IMG/VR virus record: IMGVR_UViG_3300045412_000355
Coordinates: 1-20,105 of that record
Strand: one strand, 5' to 3'
Length of the DNA: 20,105 bases
Origin: a virus
Of this stretch, positions 4,307 through 20,105 are shown one piece after another (the first letter of the stretch is position 1; each line of letters starts with the position of its first letter). Both the position numbers and the translations under genes were made by a program. The notes under the pieces are model-generated. The model was not told where the DNA came from, searched no databases, and was given only the letters and a program-made list of their open reading frames with translations.

Positions 4307-5059
4307 ATGGCAGCACCTACGGGGTTAAAACTTTACTACACTATAGAACAAGTAAAGAATACTTTTTCTAAAATTGCGTATTCTTCCTACTTCAAAACAT
4401 CTTTCCCACTCAGCAATAAGGGAGTGGCTGGGGGTTTAGTTGATTGGTTAACTGCGGCTGGAATTTATGATGCGAATGATAATTTTCCTGGATTGGATGC
4501 AATTGAATTGTTATGTTCCAATACAATTCTTCCTGGACCAAATTTTAAAACTACAGATACGATTGGAAATCGTCAGGGAGTAATTGAAAAATATCCAATT
4601 CTTCGTCAGTTTCCTGAACTTACAATGACATTTTATGTAGATTCAAATCATAAAGTCATCCGATTTTTTGAAGAGTGGTTTAATTATGTAAATCCATTAT
4701 ACAGTAAATCATTAGTAACATCTAGCCCAGAAGGTCAATCATATCGTGAGGCCGGTTCATCTAATTCTTATTATAGATTTAACTATCCTAAGAAATATTG
4801 TCAGACAATTCAAATCACAAAATTTGAAAAAGATTTGACAAATACTTATCAAAGTTCTTATCTTACTTATGAATTTGTTCAAGCATATCCCTCCAATATT
4901 ATTGTTGCTCCAGTAAGTTATCAAGCAAGTGAGATTTTAAATTTCACTGTAACATTCAACTACATTCGGTATTTTACAAGAAATTCCTTACCAAAGGGAA
5001 ATCCAAAAGTAATTACAGTCGCAGATACTCAAGTTTCAAATTTTTTAAATATAGGATAA
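4307..5059 (+). CDS. gp19-like tail tube protein (long version)
   Basis: The 250-residue product looks like a T4 gp19-family tail tube subunit (T4 gp19 is 163 aa), with a longer N-terminus and insertions. Supporting segments are FPELTMTFYVDSNHKVIRFF followed by an EEWFNYVNP helix, and the strands YCQTIQITKFEK and YEFVQAYPSNIIVAPVSYQ followed by LNFTVTFNYIRYF, the standard end of the family. Tube proteins stack as hexameric rings inside the sheath. Cyanomyoviruses usually have a separate gp19 next to the gp18 sheath gene, so this copy beside the hub genes is probably a second, specialised tube-fold protein, perhaps a tube initiator like gp54. No Shine-Dalgarno sequence precedes the ATG. It leads the plus-strand tail operon. 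Confidence 0.85.
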   Translation: MAAPTGLKLYYTIEQVKNTFSKIAYSSYFKTSFPLSNKGVAGGLVDWLTAAGIYDANDNFPGLDAIELLCSNTILPGPNFKTTDTIGNRQGVIEKYPILRQFPELTMTFYVDSNHKVIRFFEEWFNYVNPLYSKSLVTSSPEGQSYREAGSSNSYYRFNYPKKYCQTIQITKFEKDLTNTYQSSYLTYEFVQAYPSNIIVAPVSYQASEILNFTVTFNYIRYFTRNSLPKGNPKVITVADTQVSNFLNIG

Positions 5060-5082: not shown

Positions 5083-5808
5083 ATGGCTTTACCAGACAAT
5101 ACTGCACCGACATTTGAACTTACTCTTCCATCAAATGAAAAGAAGATTAAGTTTAGACCATTTATTGTGAAGGAAGAAAAACTTCTTATTCTTGCTTTAG
5201 AATCTAAGGATACAGCACAGATTACAAATACAATTAAACAAGTATTATCAAATTGTATTTTGACCAGGGGAGTCAAAGTGGAAGAACTTCCTTCATTTGA
5301 CATTGAATATTTGTTTTTGAATATTCGTGCCAAATCAATTGGGGAAGCAATTGATCTAATTTTAACTTGTTCTGATGATGGGAAAACTCAAATTCCTGTT
5401 ACAATTTTTGCAGATGAGATTCAGGTTATAAAACCAGATGACCATAACAATAAAGTTGATTTGGGAAATGGTTATACTATTCAAATGAAATACCCATCAC
5501 TATCACAATTTATTGAAAATAATTTTGATATTTCAGAAAAATCTTCCGAAAATGTTGATAGATCAATTAAATTAATTACGACTTGTATTGAGAGTGTTTA
5601 TAATGAGGATGATTGTTGGGTAGCTTCTGATTGTAGTGAAAAAGAACTTATTGATTATGTTGAAAAATTAACTCCAAAACAATATAAATTGATTGAGCAT
5701 TTCTTCAAAACTATGCCAAAATTGAGCCATACAATCACTGTTATCAATCCAAATACTGAAAAAGAGAATAGTGTCGTTTTGGAGGGCTTAACCGATTTTT
5801 TCGGCTGA
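5083..5808 (+). CDS. 26: gp26 baseplate hub/assembly protein
   Basis: The 241-residue product matches the T4 gp26 family (208 aa), needed for assembly of the baseplate hub. Hallmarks are IKFRPFIVKEEKLLILALES at 22-41, a KQVLSNCI segment, LPSFDIEYLFLNIRAKSIGE at 69-88, and the GYTIQMKYPSLSQF strand. Residues 75-88 are the most conserved part of the family. The gene lies directly between a tail tube gene and a large tail gene. That is the place held by the tail assembly chaperone in most tailed phages. Its last codons GAT TTT TTC GGC TGA contain a slippery heptamer, and a longer frameshifted product of about 299 residues is predicted (see 5802-5981). Start chosen at the only ATG before the conserved region. 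Confidence 0.88.
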   Translation: MALPDNTAPTFELTLPSNEKKIKFRPFIVKEEKLLILALESKDTAQITNTIKQVLSNCILTRGVKVEELPSFDIEYLFLNIRAKSIGEAIDLILTCSDDGKTQIPVTIFADEIQVIKPDDHNNKVDLGNGYTIQMKYPSLSQFIENNFDISEKSSENVDRSIKLITTCIESVYNEDDCWVASDCSEKELIDYVEKLTPKQYKLIEHFFKTMPKLSHTITVINPNTEKENSVVLEGLTDFFG

Positions 5809-5859
5809 TCTTAGCGAAAGAAGATCTTGAAACTTATTATAAAATTAATTTTTCGCTAA
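5781..5859 (+). promoter_or_regulatory. Candidate programmed -1 ribosomal frameshift signal
   Basis: Three elements lie in order. GGAGGG (5781-5786) resembles a Shine-Dalgarno site and sits 9 nt before the slip site, a placement like that in E. coli dnaX. T TTT TTC (5796-5802) is an X-XXY-YYZ heptamer in the gp26 frame, four codons before the stop counting the stop. After an 8-nt spacer, TTAGCGAAA (5811-5819) pairs perfectly with TTTCGCTAA (5851-5859) across a 31-nt loop; a G-U and an A-U pair could extend the stem inward. Slippage by -1 would enter the frame that runs to 5981. Confidence 0.7.
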
Positions 5860-5981
5860 TGCAGTACCATAAATATTCTCTTACAGAAATAGAAAATATG
5901 ATTCCTTGGGAAAGAGAAGTTTATTTAGAATTGCTTAAACAATACATAGAGGAAAAGGAAAAAGAAAAGGCCAATGGATGA
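5802..5981 (+). CDS. -1-frame extension of gp26 (gp51 position), hidden small ORF
   Basis: In the -1 frame relative to gp26, codons run open from the slip site to a TGA at 5979-5981: 59 residues beginning RLILAKEDLETYYKINFSLM. Then come QYHKYSLTEIENMIPWEREV, a YLELL-containing helix and a charged EEKEKEKANG end. The reading is strongly protein-like, with an IPWERE turn before an amphipathic helix. No ATG, GTG or TTG occurs between the upstream stop (5769-5771) and M20 (5859), and no Shine-Dalgarno sequence precedes 5859. Expression as a 299-residue fusion with gp26 by frameshifting is therefore the best explanation. Independent translation of the last 40 residues is the alternative. T4 has gene 51 (hub assembly) at this place. 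The ORF overlaps the next gene by 8 nt, allowing coupling. Confidence 0.75.
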   Translation, partial: RLILAKEDLETYYKINFSLMQYHKYSLTEIENMIPWEREVYLELLKQYIEEKEKEKANG

Positions 5982-7416
5982 ACAATCCCCAAAGAGCATA
6001 AAAATAAGTAACTTCTTTAATGGAACTCCAGGTTCTACTACAGGAGTTAAAGTAAGAAAATCTACTGACGTTAAAAGTCCTATCTTAATGTCAGGATCTG
6101 ATTTTGCAGCTATCTTGGGGATTATTCAAACTGAAACTGAAGTAGCACAAGCAGAAAAAGAAAAAGTTTTAGTTTTAAACAAGGAAATAATTAGGGAAAA
6201 TCAGAAGGATGATCGGGATGCCGCAAGATTACAAGCTTTTGTAAATTCATTAACCTTCCGAGTAAATGATTTAAGTAATCAACTCAGCGGATTTATGAAA
6301 TTAATATTTAAAGACCTTGAAGACCGAGAAAAAGAAACTAGAAATTACTTGAAGCAGGTAAAAGTTTCTGCAGCAGAAAGGAGTAAAAGAGCATCTTTAC
6401 AGAAAGTAGAATCTAGTATTTCAGAAGTTTCTGAAGGTGGTAAAAGTTTATCTCAAGGATTTGAGAAAGAAAGATCTGATGAGCAATATATTTCTAAACT
6501 TTTTGGAACTGCAGCAATTGCTGCTACTGCATTTGGATTAAATGCTGACGATAAACCTAATAACGAATATATGGGAAAAGATGAAGCTATTTCAAATCCA
6601 GTTCAAGCATTGCAAATTTATAATTATTTAATTTCTAAAGGAGTAGAAAAATATCATGCCATTGGAATGGTAAACAATATTTATCATGAATCCTCCTTCA
6701 ATTCTGGGGCTTATGTAATTGATAGTAATGGTAAGCCTAGTGGCGGATTATTTCAGCATAATGGGCCTAGATTTACTTCTATGGTAAAATATGTTGGAAA
6801 GGGATGGCAAAAAAATTGGCAAAAACAAATTGATTTTGCTTTAACTGAGGCTCAATATAAAGAATATCAAGGTAATAAATATACCAGTTCTGAAGATGCA
6901 TCTGTAGGATTTACACTTATATTTGAAATTCCAGATAATGCCAATTCAGTAGCAAAACAAAGATTAAAAACAATTAAATCTATAGAAAAAATTATAAACA
7001 ATTCCCCCACAAATAAAGCAAACCCAAATTCTAAATCTAATCAACAAGCATCAGCCGCATCAGCCACATCATCTCCAACTTCGCCATCAATGGCAATGAA
7101 TACTGAGCAGATAGAACGTAATCCAGAAATGAATCAAATGGCAGCAATGCCTTCTGCAATGCTTTCAGATATTGTATCGGATAGTTCTAAGATTGAACCA
7201 ACAGCGATTGATAAAAATTTCAATTATTCAACTGAAGATAATGTTCAAATTTTATCTCCCATAATTGCAAATACATCTCAGCCATCTTCACCACCAGATT
7301 ATGCAGTTGGAACCGAAAGAGTTGCTGATAATTTTGATAATGCTTCTCCATATCCCAGACCAACATATATTCCTGCAGTTGCAATAGCTTTAAATATTGC
7401 TAATATGGTTGGATAA
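5974..7416 (+). CDS. Tail hub protein with lysozyme-like domain
   Basis: The 480-residue product has three parts. Residues 45-165 are mostly charged helices suited to a coiled coil, followed by a short hydrophobic stretch (FGTAAIAATAFGL, 177-189). Residues 208-342 match the phage tail lysozyme family: QALQIYNYLISKG, then IGMVNNIYHESSFN with the likely catalytic glutamate E239, then GGLFQHNGPR, then the WQKQIDFALTE helix. Such domains cut the glycan strands of peptidoglycan during infection. Residues 345-480 are low-complexity Ser/Ala/Pro/Asn. By position after the tube and gp26 genes it occupies the slot of gp28/gp29 or a tape measure, and helical tape-measure-like proteins bearing hydrolase domains are known in other phages. 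ATG at 5974 overlaps the preceding small ORF by 8 nt. Domain call is fairly firm; structural role is inferred. Confidence 0.8.
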   Translation: MDEQSPKSIKISNFFNGTPGSTTGVKVRKSTDVKSPILMSGSDFAAILGIIQTETEVAQAEKEKVLVLNKEIIRENQKDDRDAARLQAFVNSLTFRVNDLSNQLSGFMKLIFKDLEDREKETRNYLKQVKVSAAERSKRASLQKVESSISEVSEGGKSLSQGFEKERSDEQYISKLFGTAAIAATAFGLNADDKPNNEYMGKDEAISNPVQALQIYNYLISKGVEKYHAIGMVNNIYHESSFNSGAYVIDSNGKPSGGLFQHNGPRFTSMVKYVGKGWQKNWQKQIDFALTEAQYKEYQGNKYTSSEDASVGFTLIFEIPDNANSVAKQRLKTIKSIEKIINNSPTNKANPNSKSNQQASAASATSSPTSPSMAMNTEQIERNPEMNQMAAMPSAMLSDIVSDSSKIEPTAIDKNFNYSTEDNVQILSPIIANTSQPSSPPDYAVGTERVADNFDNASPYPRPTYIPAVAIALNIANMVG

Positions 7417-8429
7417 TGCCTAAATTAAATACTCAAATTTTAGAAAAAAATTTAGTAATTAATTTAACTCGGGTTGGTAATCTGAAAAATTTTATTGTAT
7501 CGGAAAAAAATGAATATGCAACAAAAGTTAAATTGATATCCCGAGAAAATTCTTTATTAACTGATATTATAAGGAATCAGCAATATGAAGATGATAAGAA
7601 TCAGCAAATAGAAAAATCAACAATTAAGATACCTGAAAAAATTTCAACCCCCAAAGCAGTTGATAGAAAAAAAATTATCAAAGGTGCAATTTCAGCTAAC
7701 TTAATTGATTCTAAAAATATAACTCAGATATTAGGTTCAAATTTAGCTCAAGCAATTGGATTAGGTGTTGGATTAGAAGTTGCAGAATCTATACTTCCAT
7801 CAGATACTTATGAGAATAAAGAACCTTCTACCAGTTTTCGTCCTGATGGATCTAATGGAAGACTTTCAGATTCTCAATTGAAGAATGTTGGAGATGGATT
7901 TAAATTGTGGACACCAGCAGCAAATTCATATCTTAAAATGAAAGAAGCAGCAAAAAGAGATGGTGTTTATTTTGAATTGAGTGATGGATACCGAACTTAT
8001 CAGGACCAAGTGGAAATGAAAAAAAAATATGGAAAAGATGCAGCACAACCCGGAACTTCTAAACACGGTTGGGGTATTGCAATTGATATATCTTCTCCCG
8101 GATCAAGAGAATGGATTGTTAAAAATGGCCGTAAATATGGATGGATAAGACCGAGTTGGGCAAGTTGGTTTTATGAACCTTGGCACTTTGAATATATTGG
8201 AGAAACTGGAACAACTGTTCAACCAACTAAACCACAACTAAAAAAGGATAAAAACGGATATATAATTCATGATCGTATTAATACGGGAAAACAAATATCA
8301 TATCTTCCAATTATTAATGTAGATAATACACCCAAAGCAATACCAATTCCACAAAAAGCTCAAGAACCTAATTCCCCATCAATAAATACATTAGCTTCTA
8401 ATCCATTCTTTATTGTTGCAACTGGATAA
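7416..8429 (+). CDS. Tail hub protein with M15 (VanY-type) peptidase domain
   Basis: The 337-residue product has a helical N-terminus (1-70), a small hydrophobic segment near 105-125, and an M15-family zinc peptidase domain at about 155-262. The motif SKHGWGIAID (215-224) fits SxHxxGxAxD and supplies zinc ligands H217 and D224. EPWHFEY supplies the likely base E254 and ligand H257, and DGYRTYQDQ at 190-198 carries the usual arginine. Family members cleave peptide bonds in peptidoglycan stems (D-Ala-D-Ala carboxypeptidase or L-Ala-D-Glu endopeptidase); the exact bond cannot be told here. The plan of helical N-terminus, hydrophobic stretch, hydrolase and disordered tail mirrors the gene before it. 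Both flanking junctions are TAATG overlaps, so the three genes are probably translated together and placed in the same tail structure beside gp27. Confidence 0.85.
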   Translation: MPKLNTQILEKNLVINLTRVGNLKNFIVSEKNEYATKVKLISRENSLLTDIIRNQQYEDDKNQQIEKSTIKIPEKISTPKAVDRKKIIKGAISANLIDSKNITQILGSNLAQAIGLGVGLEVAESILPSDTYENKEPSTSFRPDGSNGRLSDSQLKNVGDGFKLWTPAANSYLKMKEAAKRDGVYFELSDGYRTYQDQVEMKKKYGKDAAQPGTSKHGWGIAIDISSPGSREWIVKNGRKYGWIRPSWASWFYEPWHFEYIGETGTTVQPTKPQLKKDKNGYIIHDRINTGKQISYLPIINVDNTPKAIPIPQKAQEPNSPSINTLASNPFFIVATG

Positions 8430-14343: not shown

Positions 14344-17300
14344 ATGCCTCTTTCAAGGTTAGAAAATTTTCTGAAGAATACTGATGGAAATATCGTTTAC
14401 GTTGATCCATCTGGATTAGATTCAACTGATGGTATTGAAAACCAAGGCAATTCTTTAACAAGACCTTTTAAAACAATTCAAAGAGCTTTACTTGAAGCTG
14501 CTAGATTTTCTTATAATATTGGACCAAATAATGATAAGTTTGATAAAACAACTATTTTACTTTATCCTGGTGTACATACTGTAGATAATCGTCCCGGATT
14601 AAGTGTTGCAAGTGTAGGTGGTGTACAAGAATTTAGAGATGTAAATGGAAATCTTGCAACTCTTTCAGAATTAACAAATGCAACGAATTATGATATTCAA
14701 GATCCTGGAAATGATCTTTACAAATATAATTCCGTAGGGGGTGGTATCATTGTCCCAAAGGGAACTTCAGTTGTAGGTTTAGATCTTCGTAAAACTAAAA
14801 TTCGTCCAAAGTTTGTTCCAGATCCTACAAATGCTGGAATTTCAAGTAGTAGTATATTCAGAATGACTGGTGGTTGTTATTTTTGGCAATTTTCTATTTT
14901 TGATGGAGATCTAAATAATTCTGTTTATTACGATTATAATGGAAGTACAAAAACTCCTAATTTTTCACACCATAAACTGGCATGTTTTGAATATGTTGAT
15001 GGAGTAAATGGAGTTGGAATTGGTACATCTTCCAGTTTATCTGATCTTCAGATGTATTACTATAAAGTCGCTAAGGCTTATGGTGATAGTTCTGGAAGAG
15101 GAATTGGAGATTATCCTTTAACTTTAGATTTTGAACCAAATACTCCAGAATTTAAAATTGTCGGTGCAGTTAATTCCAATGATATTGGTATTTCAAGTGC
15201 AATTTCCACTGGGCAAATTATTACAGTTGATACATCAATTGCACATGGATTAAGTATTGATGATTCAATTCGGATTAGTGGATTTACTTCCGAAACTTAT
15301 AACGGATCATATACTGTAGTTGGAGTTGGTAGTGCAAGTAGATTTCAATATAAAACAAATGCAGCACCTTCAACTGTTGGAGTAATTATTAATGGTGCAG
15401 AAAAACTTATTATTGAACCGGATAGTGTAAGTGGAGCATCTCCATACATTTTCAATTGTAGTTTGAGATCTACCTATGGAATGTGTGGATTAAATGCTGA
15501 TGGCAGTAGTGTCACAGGATTTAAATCTGTAGTTGTAGCTCAATTCACCGGAATTGGTTTGCAAAAAGATGATGATGCTTTTGTAATCTATGATAAAAAT
15601 AGTGGAACTTATCAGGATAATAATACAACTTCTTTGGCAAATCGCCCATTACATTTAAATTCAAGTGCAATTTATAAGCCAGGATATGCAAATTATCATA
15701 TTCGTGCTGCAAATGGATCTATTATTCAATGTGTTTCTATCTTTGCAATTGGATATGCAAATCATTTTCTTGCTGAATCTGGTGGTGATATGTCTATCAC
15801 CAACTCAAACTCCAATTTTGGCGCAAAATCTTTAATTGCTAAAGGTTATCAGTCACAATCTTTTGATCGGGATGATGTTGGATACATTACTCACATTGTT
15901 CCACCAAAAGATATTAATATTTCAGAAGATTCAATTTCTTGGTTGGCTTTAGATGTAGGATTATCTACTGCAACTTCTGGAGTTGGAACTACTTCTAGAA
16001 TATATCTTTATAATTTTACAGGCGAAGATAATCCTCCCCCCAATGTTCTAAGCTCTTATAAGATTGGTTCTCGGCAAGGTGAACTGTTAAGAATAAATGT
16101 TTCAACAGCTTCTTCGGAAGTGAGTGCATCAACTCCAATTTTAATGCCAGTTCCAAGTGGAGGGGATGGACCAAGTTCTGAAAAATCATACAAACTTATT
16201 CAAGTAGGTGCTGCAAATAGTATTACCTCTAATACTACTTTAAATCTTGAAACAAATCATGAATTATTTACAGGAGAATCTGTAAGAGTTTTTAGTGATA
16301 ATGCATCTTTTCCGAATGGAATTTTTGGAGATACTGTATATTATGCAATTACCACAGGTTTAGCAGCAAATCAAGTTCAATTGGCAAGAAGTTTTAATGA
16401 TGCTGTAATTGGAACACCAGTTCCAATTAATATTTTAAATATTAATGCAGGTCAATTAACTGTTGTTAGCCGAGTATCTGATAAATCTCCGGGAGAATAT
16501 GGTCACCCAATTCAATATGATGCAATAAGAGATAATTGGTATATTGTAGGTTCTGCAAATACTTCAAAAAATACAATTTATCCAGCATTTATACAATATA
16601 GGCAATTTTTAACAGATTCTAGCTCCAAAACTTATTTTAGTCGTCAGGCAGATACCCGAAATGTAAGTGATAGAATTTATAGATTCCGTTATATAATTCC
16701 AAAGGAATATGGTTCTGCTTCCACAAATGCAAAACCACCATCAATTGGTTATATTATTCAGGAAAGTAAAACCTCCAATGTTACTGGAGAAAGCGAATTT
16801 AATATAGTTACTGATCAATCTAAATTAAGAAATACCCGAATTATTCATTCAGTAGTTCATAATACTGCGGTTGGAATTTGTACAATTATAACAGAACTTC
16901 CTCATAAATTGAATGTGAAGGATACTGTAAAAATTAATAACATTAGAAGTTCAAATAACCCAAATGGAATTGGAAATTCTGGATTTAATGGAATCTTTCC
17001 AGTAACTGGAATTACAAGTGCTAAAGGATTTACAATCAATTTGAGTTCAACTCCGGGAACTTATATTAATGTATCTTCCAGCAGAAATCAAAATCTGCCA
17101 AATGTGGCCAGAAATGATTATAGAAATACTTATTCAATCTATAGAATTGATACAATTCAAGATCAGGAATATCAAAAATCTGATGGAATATATCATGTAA
17201 CATGCATTTTAAATAATGTCACTCCCACGGATCCGTATTTCTCCGGAGATGAATATCCTCAGAATATTGCAAATCTGTATCCCACAAGAGACAGAGATAA

Positions 17301-20105
17301 TATTAATGTTGATCCATCATCATCTGTAAGTTATGCTCAGAATTATAGATTGGGTAAAGTTGATATTAATGATAGAAGAAACAGCATTACTAAAGAAGCT
17401 GTAGAATATTTCTTCAAGGATAACCGAATTGGTGTAGGAATTACTTATGCACAAAATACTGCTGGAATTACAACAATTTACACTGACGTTGAGCATAATT
17501 TAAATAGTATTCGTTCACTTTCTATTTCTAGTGGTGGTTCATCTTATGGATATTCTGGCATCGCCACAGTTTTGTATAATGCATCATTAATTGGAATTGG
17601 AATTACTGGAGGTGGAGCAACTGCAAATGTATCTGTAAGTGCTGCAGGAACTGTAAATGGAATTACTTTAGTAGATGGTGGTTCTGCTTATGGTGTAGGA
17701 ATGACGATGAGTGTAGTTGGAGTTACTACACGGGCAAGTGGATTTATTCCTGCGATTGTTCAAGTTACAACAGTCAATAATTGTATTGGTGATGTAATTC
17801 AAGTCGTTGGAGTTGGAACAACTGGAAATAGAAATTATAGTGGATATAATGGTGCTTATAGAATTTCTGGAATTACCAGTACAAAATCAGTTACTTATAA
17901 TAATACAGTTAATCCTGGAATATTTACGAATACTTCATCTTCAGGATTCTTCTATCTTACTGATGATGCAAAATTAATTACCAATATTCAATATAGTAGT
18001 TCTACTAGTGGAATTGTAACAGTAACTACATCAGATTCTCATGGTTTATTTGTTGGTAATAAATTTACCATTGTCGGATCTGCTCAGACAATTTATAATG
18101 GAACTTTTAATGTTAAGAGTAAAATTGGAATTAGAACCTTTACTTATTATGATTCTTCAGGATATACTCCTGCGGCATTTACTGGGGGAAATGTATATGT
18201 TCTTAGAAATGCTCTTGCTTCTCAAAATGAAGATACAAGTGCAGAAAATGAAAAACTTTCTGGAAGACTTATTCCTCTGTATGCAGGAATTTCTACTACA
18301 GCACCTTCTGGAATCAGCACTACTGCAAGTACATTAACATTATCAAATATTGTTGGATTTAATACTGGAGATTTCTTACAAATTGATAGTGAAATTTTAA
18401 GAATCTCCGGAAACATAAATGCTGGATCTAATTCAGCTTCTGTTCTTCGTGGATTACTTGGAACACGTTCTGTTTCTCATGATGCAAATTCATTGGTGAG
18501 AAAAATTAAACCAATTCCAACTGAACTCAGAAGACACAGTATTCTTCGTGCATCTGGTCATACATTTGAATATGTTGGATATGGTCATGGTAATTATTCT
18601 GTAGCTTTACCCCAAAGACAGGATCGTAATTTAATTCGGGAAGAGAGACAACTTGCACAAGCAATTAGTCAAAATGGTGGTACTATAGCATATACTGGAA
18701 CAAATGATACTGGAGAATTCTTCATTGGAAATAAAATTATTGATCCAGTAAGCGGTGCTGAAGTTTCCATTAATATTCCCACAGAAACTTTTATTGGAGA
18801 TGTTGATTCTAGCTTGTCTGTAAGTTACGATGATGTAACTATTCGGAATACTCTTCAAGTTAATGGTGGAAGTGGAAATGTACAATCTTCAGAATTTCGT
18901 GGTCCAGTAAATTTCTATAATAAATTATCTTCAAATGCAACTGGAGGTATTGAAGCAATTCAATTCTTAATGAAAGGAACTGCATCTCAGGTAAGATCTT
19001 TAACTGTAGGAAATACTGTTCCGGTCATTGCTGGAACTCAGTCTGATATTGTTGTTGGAACTGGTGCTACAATTGGAGGATATCTTGGTTGGGTTTATAC
19101 TGGAGCTACTGGATGGAAGAGATTTGGCTTAATTAGTCAAAGTGCAACTCAAACAATTATTACTCCAGATCAAATTGGATTGGGAACAGATACTCCCAGA
19201 GATTTACTTGACATTCGTGGAGGTGGAGCTACTCTTCAACAGTTAAGAGTTACTGGAATTGTAACTTTTGATAATGGTGGAAACTTAAACAATGTTACCT
19301 TTGGAACTGCTGTTTTCCAAGGTATATCTACATTCCAAGGAGATATTAATCAAACCGCTGGTATTGCTACTTTTCAGAATATCTCGCTACCAAATGGAAG
19401 TTTCCAAGTTACTAATATTGTAATTCCAGGAATCTCTACCTTTAGTGGAACTGGAAATAATATTCAACAAACTGCTGGAACTGCAGCATTAAATCGTTTA
19501 ACAGTTGCTGGAGTTTCAACCTTTACTGGACAATTAAATGCCGGTACAATCTCTGCATCTTCTTTAATTGGAACTCTGAACAATACGCTTACATTTAATT
19601 CTCCACTGACAGGAACTTCGTATAACAACTCAGCAGCAGTATCACTTGGAATTAATGCTACAAGTGAAAATACGCCAAACTATGTTGTGCAAAGAAATAG
19701 TTCTGGTGGTTTTAGTGCTGGTATTATTACTGCTACTCAATTAAATGGATCACTTCAACATCCATTAACTTTTGGAACATATTTGACTGGAACTTCTTAT
19801 AATAATTCAAGTGCGGTTACAATTGCAACAAATGCTACAAGTGAAAATACTGCTTCTACTCTTGTTGCTCGTAATTCTTCTGGTGGTTTTAGTGCTGGTA
19901 CGATTGCTGCTACTCAATTAAATGGATCACTTCAGCATACATTAACTTTTGGAACATATTTGACTGGAACTTCTTATAATAATTCAAGTGCGGTTACAAT
20001 TGCAACAAATGCTACAAGTGCAAATACTGGTTCTACTCTTGTTGCTCGTAATTCTTCTGGTGGTTTTAGTGCTGGTATTATTACTGCAACAACATTATCA
20101 AATGC
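14344..20105 (+). CDS. Giant fibre-like virion structural protein, 3' end outside window
   Basis: From the ATG at 14344 the frame stays open to the window end (1,920 full codons, no stop); I checked every line in this frame. The N-terminus MPLSRLENFLKNTDGNIVYV, then RPFKTIQRALLEAARFSY, is the one I associate with the very long structural protein of marine cyanomyoviruses. The start resembles pectate-lyase-like beta-helix proteins (GNSLTRPFKTIQRAL). A beta-rich region at about 366-524 contains NGSIIQCVSIFAIGYANHFL. Gly/Tyr repeats lie at about 1060-1134. HTFEYVGYGHGNYSVALPQ lies near 1405-1423. Five GI(S/A)TF-like motifs lie at about 1638-1727. From about residue 1740 come 59-residue tandem repeats. 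Ser, Thr, Asn, Gly and Ile dominate throughout. It probably forms a baseplate-attached fibre or needle; the exact role is not established. A late promoter stands before it. Confidence 0.88.
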   Translation, partial: MPLSRLENFLKNTDGNIVYVDPSGLDSTDGIENQGNSLTRPFKTIQRALLEAARFSYNIGPNNDKFDKTTILLYPGVHTVDNRPGLSVASVGGVQEFRDVNGNLATLSELTNATNYDIQDPGNDLYKYNSVGGGIIVPKGTSVVGLDLRKTKIRPKFVPDPTNAGISSSSIFRMTGGCYFWQFSIFDGDLNNSVYYDYNGSTKTPNFSHHKLACFEYVDGVNGVGIGTSSSLSDLQMYYYKVAKAYGDSSGRGIGDYPLTLDFEPNTPEFKIVGAVNSNDIGISSAISTGQIITVDTSIAHGLSIDDSIRISGFTSETYNGSYTVVGVGSASRFQYKTNAAPSTVGVIINGAEKLIIEPDSVSGASPYIFNCSLRSTYGMCGLNADGSSVTGFKSVVVAQFTGIGLQKDDDAFVIYDKNSGTYQDNNTTSLANRPLHLNSSAIYKPGYANYHIRAANGSIIQCVSIFAIGYANHFLAESGGDMSITNSNSNFGAKSLIAKGYQSQSFDRDDVGYITHIVPPKDINISEDSISWLALDVGLSTATSGVGTTSRIYLYNFTGEDNPPPNVLSSYKIGSRQGELLRINVSTASSEVSASTPILMPVPSGGDGPSSEKSYKLIQVGAANSITSNTTLNLETNHELFTGESVRVFSDNASFPNGIFGDTVYYAITTGLAANQVQLARSFNDAVIGTPVPINILNINAGQLTVVSRVSDKSPGEYGHPIQYDAIRDNWYIVGSANTSKNTIYPAFIQYRQFLTDSSSKTYFSRQADTRNVSDRIYRFRYIIPKEYGSASTNAKPPSIGYIIQESKTSNVTGESEFNIVTDQSKLRNTRIIHSVVHNTAVGICTIITELPHKLNVKDTVKINNIRSSNNPNGIGNSGFNGIFPVTGITSAKGFTINLSSTPGTYINVSSSRNQNLPNVARNDYRNTYSIYRIDTIQDQEYQKSDGIYHVTCILNNVTPTDPYFSGDEYPQNIANLYPTRDRDNINVDPSSSVSYAQNYRLGKVDINDRRNSITKEAVEYFFKDNRIGVGITYAQNTAGITTIYTDVEHNLNSIRSLSISSGGSSYGYSGIATVLYNASLIGIGITGGGATANVSVSAAGTVNGITLVDGGSAYGVGMTMSVVGVTTRASGFIPAIVQVTTVNNCIGDVIQVVGVGTTGNRNYSGYNGAYRISGITSTKSVTYNNTVNPGIFTNTSSSGFFYLTDDAKLITNIQYSSSTSGIVTVTTSDSHGLFVGNKFTIVGSAQTIYNGTFNVKSKIGIRTFTYYDSSGYTPAAFTGGNVYVLRNALASQNEDTSAENEKLSGRLIPLYAGISTTAPSGISTTASTLTLSNIVGFNTGDFLQIDSEILRISGNINAGSNSASVLRGLLGTRSVSHDANSLVRKIKPIPTELRRHSILRASGHTFEYVGYGHGNYSVALPQRQDRNLIREERQLAQAISQNGGTIAYTGTNDTGEFFIGNKIIDPVSGAEVSINIPTETFIGDVDSSLSVSYDDVTIRNTLQVNGGSGNVQSSEFRGPVNFYNKLSSNATGGIEAIQFLMKGTASQVRSLTVGNTVPVIAGTQSDIVVGTGATIGGYLGWVYTGATGWKRFGLISQSATQTIITPDQIGLGTDTPRDLLDIRGGGATLQQLRVTGIVTFDNGGNLNNVTFGTAVFQGISTFQGDINQTAGIATFQNISLPNGSFQVTNIVIPGISTFSGTGNNIQQTAGTAALNRLTVAGVSTFTGQLNAGTISASSLIGTLNNTLTFNSPLTGTSYNNSAAVSLGINATSENTPNYVVQRNSSGGFSAGIITATQLNGSLQHPLTFGTYLTGTSYNNSSAVTIATNATSENTASTLVARNSSGGFSAGTIAATQLNGSLQHTLTFGTYLTGTSYNNSSAVTIATNATSANTGSTLVARNSSGGFSAGIITATTLSN
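19255..19524 (+). repeat. Degenerate G-(I/V)-x-T-F motif series in the fibre gene
   Basis: The motif G-(I/V)-x-T-F occurs with glycine codons at 19255, 19321, 19360, 19429 and 19510 (GIVTF, GISTF, GIATF, GISTF, GVSTF). The spacing is irregular (22, 13, 23 and 27 residues). Such repeats suggest stacked strands in a trimeric fibre shaft just before the tandem repeats. Confidence 0.6.
19561..20091 (+). repeat. 177-bp (59-residue) tandem repeats, three units visible
   Basis: Units start at 19561, 19738 and 19915, each 177 bp. Units 2 and 3 differ at 9 of 177 positions by hand count (about 95% identity); unit 1 is more diverged. Each unit carries LTF-x-x-x-LTGTSYNNS, then a NATS-x-NT segment and a NSSGGFSAG end. 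Similar LTGTSYNGS and DASGNFSAGTI repeats are familiar from phage fibre shafts. The array may continue past the window. Confidence 0.9.

Follow-up and report, generated by a model that had tools for sequence, protein, structure and literature searches.

Comparative sequence evidence for a probable programmed -1 ribosomal frameshift at the end of gp26 in cyanophages and related T4-like phages

The locus and the question it raises

The window, by which we mean the whole stretch of DNA that was analysed, is a virus record of 20,105 bases. Behind the end of its gp26 gene a second reading frame, shifted by -1, stays open up to the next gene, and the question is how this frame comes to be translated. 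The first-pass annotation, made from the letters of the window, had claimed that slippage of ribosomes in the last codons of gp26 yields both gp26 and a 299-aa extended protein. Comparative evidence makes this the best explanation: a programmed -1 ribosomal frameshift very probably takes place at the end of gp26 and gives gp26 and a 299-aa gp26-51 protein, the putative short and long forms of a tail assembly chaperone. The features of the locus are as follows.

5083-5808, + strand: gp26, 241 aa in the 0 frame, putative short form of a tail assembly chaperone (TAC-N)
5781-5786, + strand: GGAGGG, Shine-Dalgarno-like site and putative stimulator, 9 nt upstream of the heptamer
5796-5802, + strand: slippery heptamer T TTT TTC, with TTT as P-site and TTC as A-site codon, in phase for tandem -1 slippage
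5806-5808, + strand: TGA, 0-frame stop of gp26, 3 nt past the heptamer
5811-5859, + strand: possible stem in which 5811-5819 pairs with 5851-5859; relatives do not keep it
5802-5981, + strand: -1 frame extension of 59 codons and a stop, C-terminal domain of the putative long form, called 'gp51' in cyanophage annotation

The product of gp26 belongs to the T4 gp26 family, as the whole protein matches above the curated cut-off: it hits PF12322 (T4_baseplate) with an E-value of 2.8e-68 and 230 bits (cut-off 24.5) over residues 9-240, and phrog_150 (baseplate hub) with an E-value of 3.6e-73. A tail tube family gene lies directly upstream (4307-5059). Downstream of the gp26 region there are two adjoining genes (5974-8429; the nearer one 5974-7416). 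A phage tail lysozyme domain (PF18013) is found in one and a VanY peptidase domain (PF02557) in the other. Both genes also match tape measure families, weakly, and they may combine a tape measure role with wall-cutting domains. Farther along, a reading frame of 1920 codons (14344-20103) runs off the end of the window and probably encodes a very large virion protein. The closest isolate found was the lake Synechococcus phage DSL-LC03, whose annotation includes gp26 but lacks the extension.

Conservation of the slippery heptamer

Both upstream elements described by the first-pass annotation, the in-phase T TTT TTC in the last codons of gp26 and the GGAGGG 9 nt before it, were read at their positions in the window. 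The spaced pattern GGAGGG-N9-TTTTTTC occurs there once and in none of 100 shuffles. More decisive than the shuffle test for the reality of the cassette is its conservation. Relatives were collected with queries from four lineages and from named phages, which gave 214 distinct gp26 loci. Their alignment, proposed earlier as a check, had a favourable outcome: the in-phase T6 heptamer is kept in 212 of the 214 loci, at G + C contents of 30-58%, as TTTTTTC (200 loci), TTTTTTT (11) or TTTTTTG (1). All seven additional isolates, Aeh1 and DLP6 among them, carry T TTT TTC. The codon ahead of the heptamer varies (GAT, AGT, TCT, GCT, AAT, ACT, CAT) and always ends in T, which the T6 criterion itself demands of all 212 loci.

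The outcomes named by the first-pass annotation as speaking against its claim were not seen, except in the distant Vibrio phages K445 and VAP7. These lack the heptamer, and an ATG of the -1 frame overlaps the gp26 stop (TAATG; L083 3145-3348 and L088 3166-3369), which suggests that they switched from slippage to coupled initiation. Searches of viral_contigs with distant Vibrio-type queries found no relatives.

It might be argued that the heptamer is only a by-product of a conserved terminal Phe-Phe and has no role in frameshifting, since Gly-Leu-x-x-Phe-Phe stands at the end of gp26 in nearly all loci, T4 included. However, the codon choice is fixed at the terminal pair alone, so the heptamer is not merely an amino-acid need: the terminal Phe-Phe is written TTT TTC in 45 of 51 clusters (70% identity), compared with one of 56 other Phe-Phe pairs within the same gp26 genes (Fisher p 5e-23). 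An in-phase X XXY YYZ heptamer is thus conserved beyond what the protein requires. Moreover, the codons flip to TTC TTT where gp51 is a separate gene, and the -1 frame behind the heptamer is coding, so that this explanation is hardly credible.

The run of T residues also invites transcriptional slippage, in which a base is added in part of the mRNA; one added U would indeed lead into the -1 frame. The run, however, is exactly six T long in 201 of the 212 loci and never longer than eight, and a run of 6-8 T is short for polymerase slippage. It is furthermore held in codon phase and mostly ended by C, as re-pairing of tRNAs allows, and we regard transcriptional slippage as very improbable.

The homopolymer at the junction could likewise point to a sequencing error in what is truly one fused gene, or to the remnant of a pseudogene. 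This is already contradicted and can be practically discounted, as many assemblies show the same layout, at 212 distinct loci, and so do isolates such as P-SSM2, S-SSM7, Aeh1, DLP6 and DSL-LC03; the extension is, besides, under purifying selection.

Signals around the heptamer

The window has a Shine-Dalgarno-like GGAGGG at 9 nt, close to the distance of about 10 nt expected of an upstream stimulator. In 26 of 37 cluster representatives GAG encodes the Glu of this site, whereas at other places in gp26 the figure is 360 of 1111 (Fisher p 4e-6), and GGG is present at the site in 10 of 50 clusters compared with 19 of 395 elsewhere. This synonymous enrichment of GAG and GGG indicates that the site is selected at synonymous positions, and GGAGGG would accordingly be a candidate stimulator of slippage. 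The element is not universal: a simple search found no Shine-Dalgarno-like site upstream of the heptamer in 9 of the 212 loci.

The perfect 9-bp stem, which the first-pass annotation had counted as part of the cassette, is present in the window, where TTAGCGAAA (5811-5819) pairs with TTTCGCTAA (5851-5859) around a 31-nt loop, starting 8 nt past the heptamer (-13.1 kcal/mol, z -2.1). As a conserved part of the signal it did not hold, since only 3-7 of the 9 positions pair in relatives. The stem is therefore ruled out as a conserved element and is at best an optional, lineage-specific one. The downstream region as a whole folds mildly better than control stretches (mean z -1.29 vs -0.35, p 8e-5). 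A strong downstream hairpin is found in some clades only, such as GTATGGCTCA...TGAGTCATAC in P-SSM2; in one cyanophage group the strong hairpin of this sequence lies about 5 nt past the heptamer (L082 3220-3250; L062; L071; L076).

The distance from the heptamer to the gp26 stop is 3 nt in 188 of the 212 loci. In 14 of the 212 the stop abuts the heptamer (e.g., TTTTTTC followed by TAG or TGA; L263 1501-1513, L175), and pausing at the stop codon might there be an extra aid to slippage. Readthrough of the stop codon was also considered and rejected, because in-frame reading past the TGA would at once meet another stop, TAG at 5812-5814, and would not enter the extension, which is in the -1 frame.

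Coding potential of the -1 frame

The open stretch of the -1 frame begins at 5772 and ends with the stop at 5979-5981, and the first ATG, GTG or TTG in it is at 5859; the earlier statement that 59 codons stay open without a nearby start was thus borne out. So were the product lengths given there, 241 aa for gp26 and 299 aa for the extended form, the latter computed as 240 + 59 aa. The extension belongs to the gp51 family: it matches phrog_634 ('baseplate hub assembly catalyst', gp51) with an E-value of 9.6e-27, and a profile of the extension finds T4 gp51 by hmmsearch with an E-value of 7e-9. Searches of Pfam and NCBIfam with the extension gave nothing credible. In 708 pairs at 70-92% identity, which are not independent of one another, pN/pS of the extension is 0.20 in the -1 frame compared with 1.03 and 2.38 in the other two frames. 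By these ratios the -1 frame is the coding one, and the only one under purifying selection.

A coding frame could also be served by independent or coupled initiation, gp51 then being a separate small gene with its own start just after gp26. It is annotated as such in P-SSM2, S-SSM7, phiN3 and others. A start codon without a Shine-Dalgarno-like site is in range in 111 of the 212 loci, six loci have an ATG overlapping the gp26 stop (TRATG) that would permit coupled initiation, and both loci without a heptamer, K445 and VAP7, have TAATG. On the other hand, 98 of the 212 loci, including the window, lack any -1 frame start codon from which the conserved part of the extension would be translated, and only three have a start in range with a Shine-Dalgarno-like site. 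In the window, a start at 5859 would omit the conserved LETYYKINFSL part. These counts make independent initiation unlikely, although the start-site test is weaker than it appears, because the gp26 starts themselves have a Shine-Dalgarno-like site in only 90 of the 212 loci by the same search. Initiation at a separate gp51 start would moreover leave unexplained both the invariant heptamer and why T4 makes the corresponding part fused to a gp26-like domain, and we give it a small chance as the general explanation.

Relationship to gp26 and gp51 of phage T4

T4-type phages have a separate, full-length gp51 gene adjoining gp26. Four of the six T4-type phages (T4, EK29, K65 and Moon) keep Phe-Phe at the end of gp26, written as G TTC TTT or A TTC TTT, sequences that cannot slip; in PS2 and JK32 the second Phe is lost from the gp26 end. 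By their sequences the T4-type phages are a natural control for the frameshift claim, which makes it directly testable.

Profile comparison aligned T4 gp26 with the 0-frame product (probability 99.3%) and T4 gp51 end to end with the virtual fusion of gp26 and the extension (236 columns, 98.8%); in this alignment FKL of T4 gp51 stands opposite the junction FF-RL, and the C-terminus of T4 gp51 opposite the extension. T4 gp26 and T4 gp51 also match each other (97.3%). In the tree, which is unrooted and in which the T4-type clades have long branches, the T4-type gp26 copies and the T4-type gp51 copies each form a clade, and these two clades are joined opposite the frameshift type (98/94), the pattern that a single duplication would leave.

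We consider it likely that T4 is the derived state. In the common ancestor of the T4-like phages, -1 slippage at T TTT TTC would have let one gene supply both gp26 and gp26-51; a single duplication in the T4 line would then have provided a separate gene for each of them, and the slippery codons would have changed afterwards. Cyanophages, Aeh1 and the Vibrio Straboviridae 6E35.1a and PG216 appear to keep the ancestral slippage arrangement.

The frameshift, together with the homology of the fusion, offers one explanation for two annotation puzzles. Cyanophage gp51 was described as about 20% of the length of other gp51 proteins, without their first ~200 residues, and gp51 was reported as missing in Aeh1 (PMC3037559, 2010). 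The 'truncated' cyanophage gp51 would be the end of the long form, and in Aeh1 (NC_005260) the extension is found unannotated behind gp26. The cyanophage and related records that we examined carry an incomplete gene model, in which the long form is unannotated or its end appears as a separate small gene. In the record of Citrobacter phage Moon (NC_027331; L260 2156-3794) gp27 and gp28 are annotated as joined into a 'GT-like fusion protein'; given the homology of gp26 and gp51, the chaperone pair of Moon is more likely gp26 and gp51.

Proposed mechanism and function

We propose that most ribosomes would stop at 5806-5808 and release gp26 of 241 aa. A minority would pause at T TTT TTC, aided by contact of the anti-Shine-Dalgarno sequence with GGAGGG 9 nt upstream; both tRNAs would then shift back by one base to pair with TTT TTT, and 59 further codons would be translated to give the 299-aa gp26-51 protein. 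We infer both the occurrence and the efficiency of this slippage from sequence comparison. If they act like gpG and gpGT of lambda, the two forms would cover the tape measure protein and bring in subunits of the tail tube.

The two products are best read as a tail assembly chaperone like lambda G/GT, with gp26 as its short form and gp26-51 as its long form. The sequence predicts one gene with two products, the longer of which carries an additional C-terminal domain. The chaperone function itself is a putative assignment taken mostly from T4, since the matches of the neighbouring genes to tape measure families are weak, so that a tape measure gene next door is not firm, and the match to the HK97 fold is not significant: the model of gp26 (pLDDT 84.8) ranked the HK97 gp13 chaperone (PDB 2ob9) second and seventh, with an E-value of about 1. 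A search of solved structures by sequence gave no match to gp26. Hub assembly chaperone is the role listed for both T4 gp26 and T4 gp51, and the latter is reportedly not part of the final particle (PMC3004832).

Comparison with known systems

The first-pass annotation did not know of a gp26 frameshift described in T4-like phages. This needs correction, as the kind of event is the known frameshift of tail assembly chaperones, and Vladimirov et al. 2022 (Virology 566:9-15) reportedly identified T4-like chaperone genes. Papers that draw on this study cite it for T4-like phages with one short and one long gene replacing the frameshift (PMC10885494) and for poly-T frameshift signals in T4-like phages (PMC12846349); from these citations, the phenomenon has probably been described in part already. 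What this analysis itself can answer for comprises the survey, the controls at codon level, an account of gp51 in Aeh1 and cyanophages, and the misannotation.

With T4 the likeness is one of direct homologues, gp26 of the window corresponding to T4 gp26 and the virtual fusion to the whole of T4 gp51. The difference is that T4 has two divergent genes, one per form, whereas the window has one gene and a frameshift.

The review PMC5009743 cites Levin 1993 and Xu 2004 for the tail assembly chaperones G/GT of lambda and their -1 frameshift in long-tailed phages. Both lambda forms bind the tape measure protein, and the extra part of the long one binds the tube subunit; the same review calls this scheme widely conserved 'except T4'. 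Our results bear on this stated exception of T4 to tail-chaperone frameshifting. The locus in the window resembles lambda G/GT in that a short and a long form would arise from one gene by -1 slippage, here beside a tail tube gene; it differs in that its heptamer is T TTT TTC and no detectable sequence similarity to the lambda proteins was found.

In the Vandenendeviridae and Andersonviridae (PMC12846349), as is predicted for the window, -1 frameshifting takes place at a poly-T motif where the short form ends, and there too the downstream part is misannotated as a hypothetical gene or omitted. They differ in their motif, GTTTTT, and belong to other phage families.
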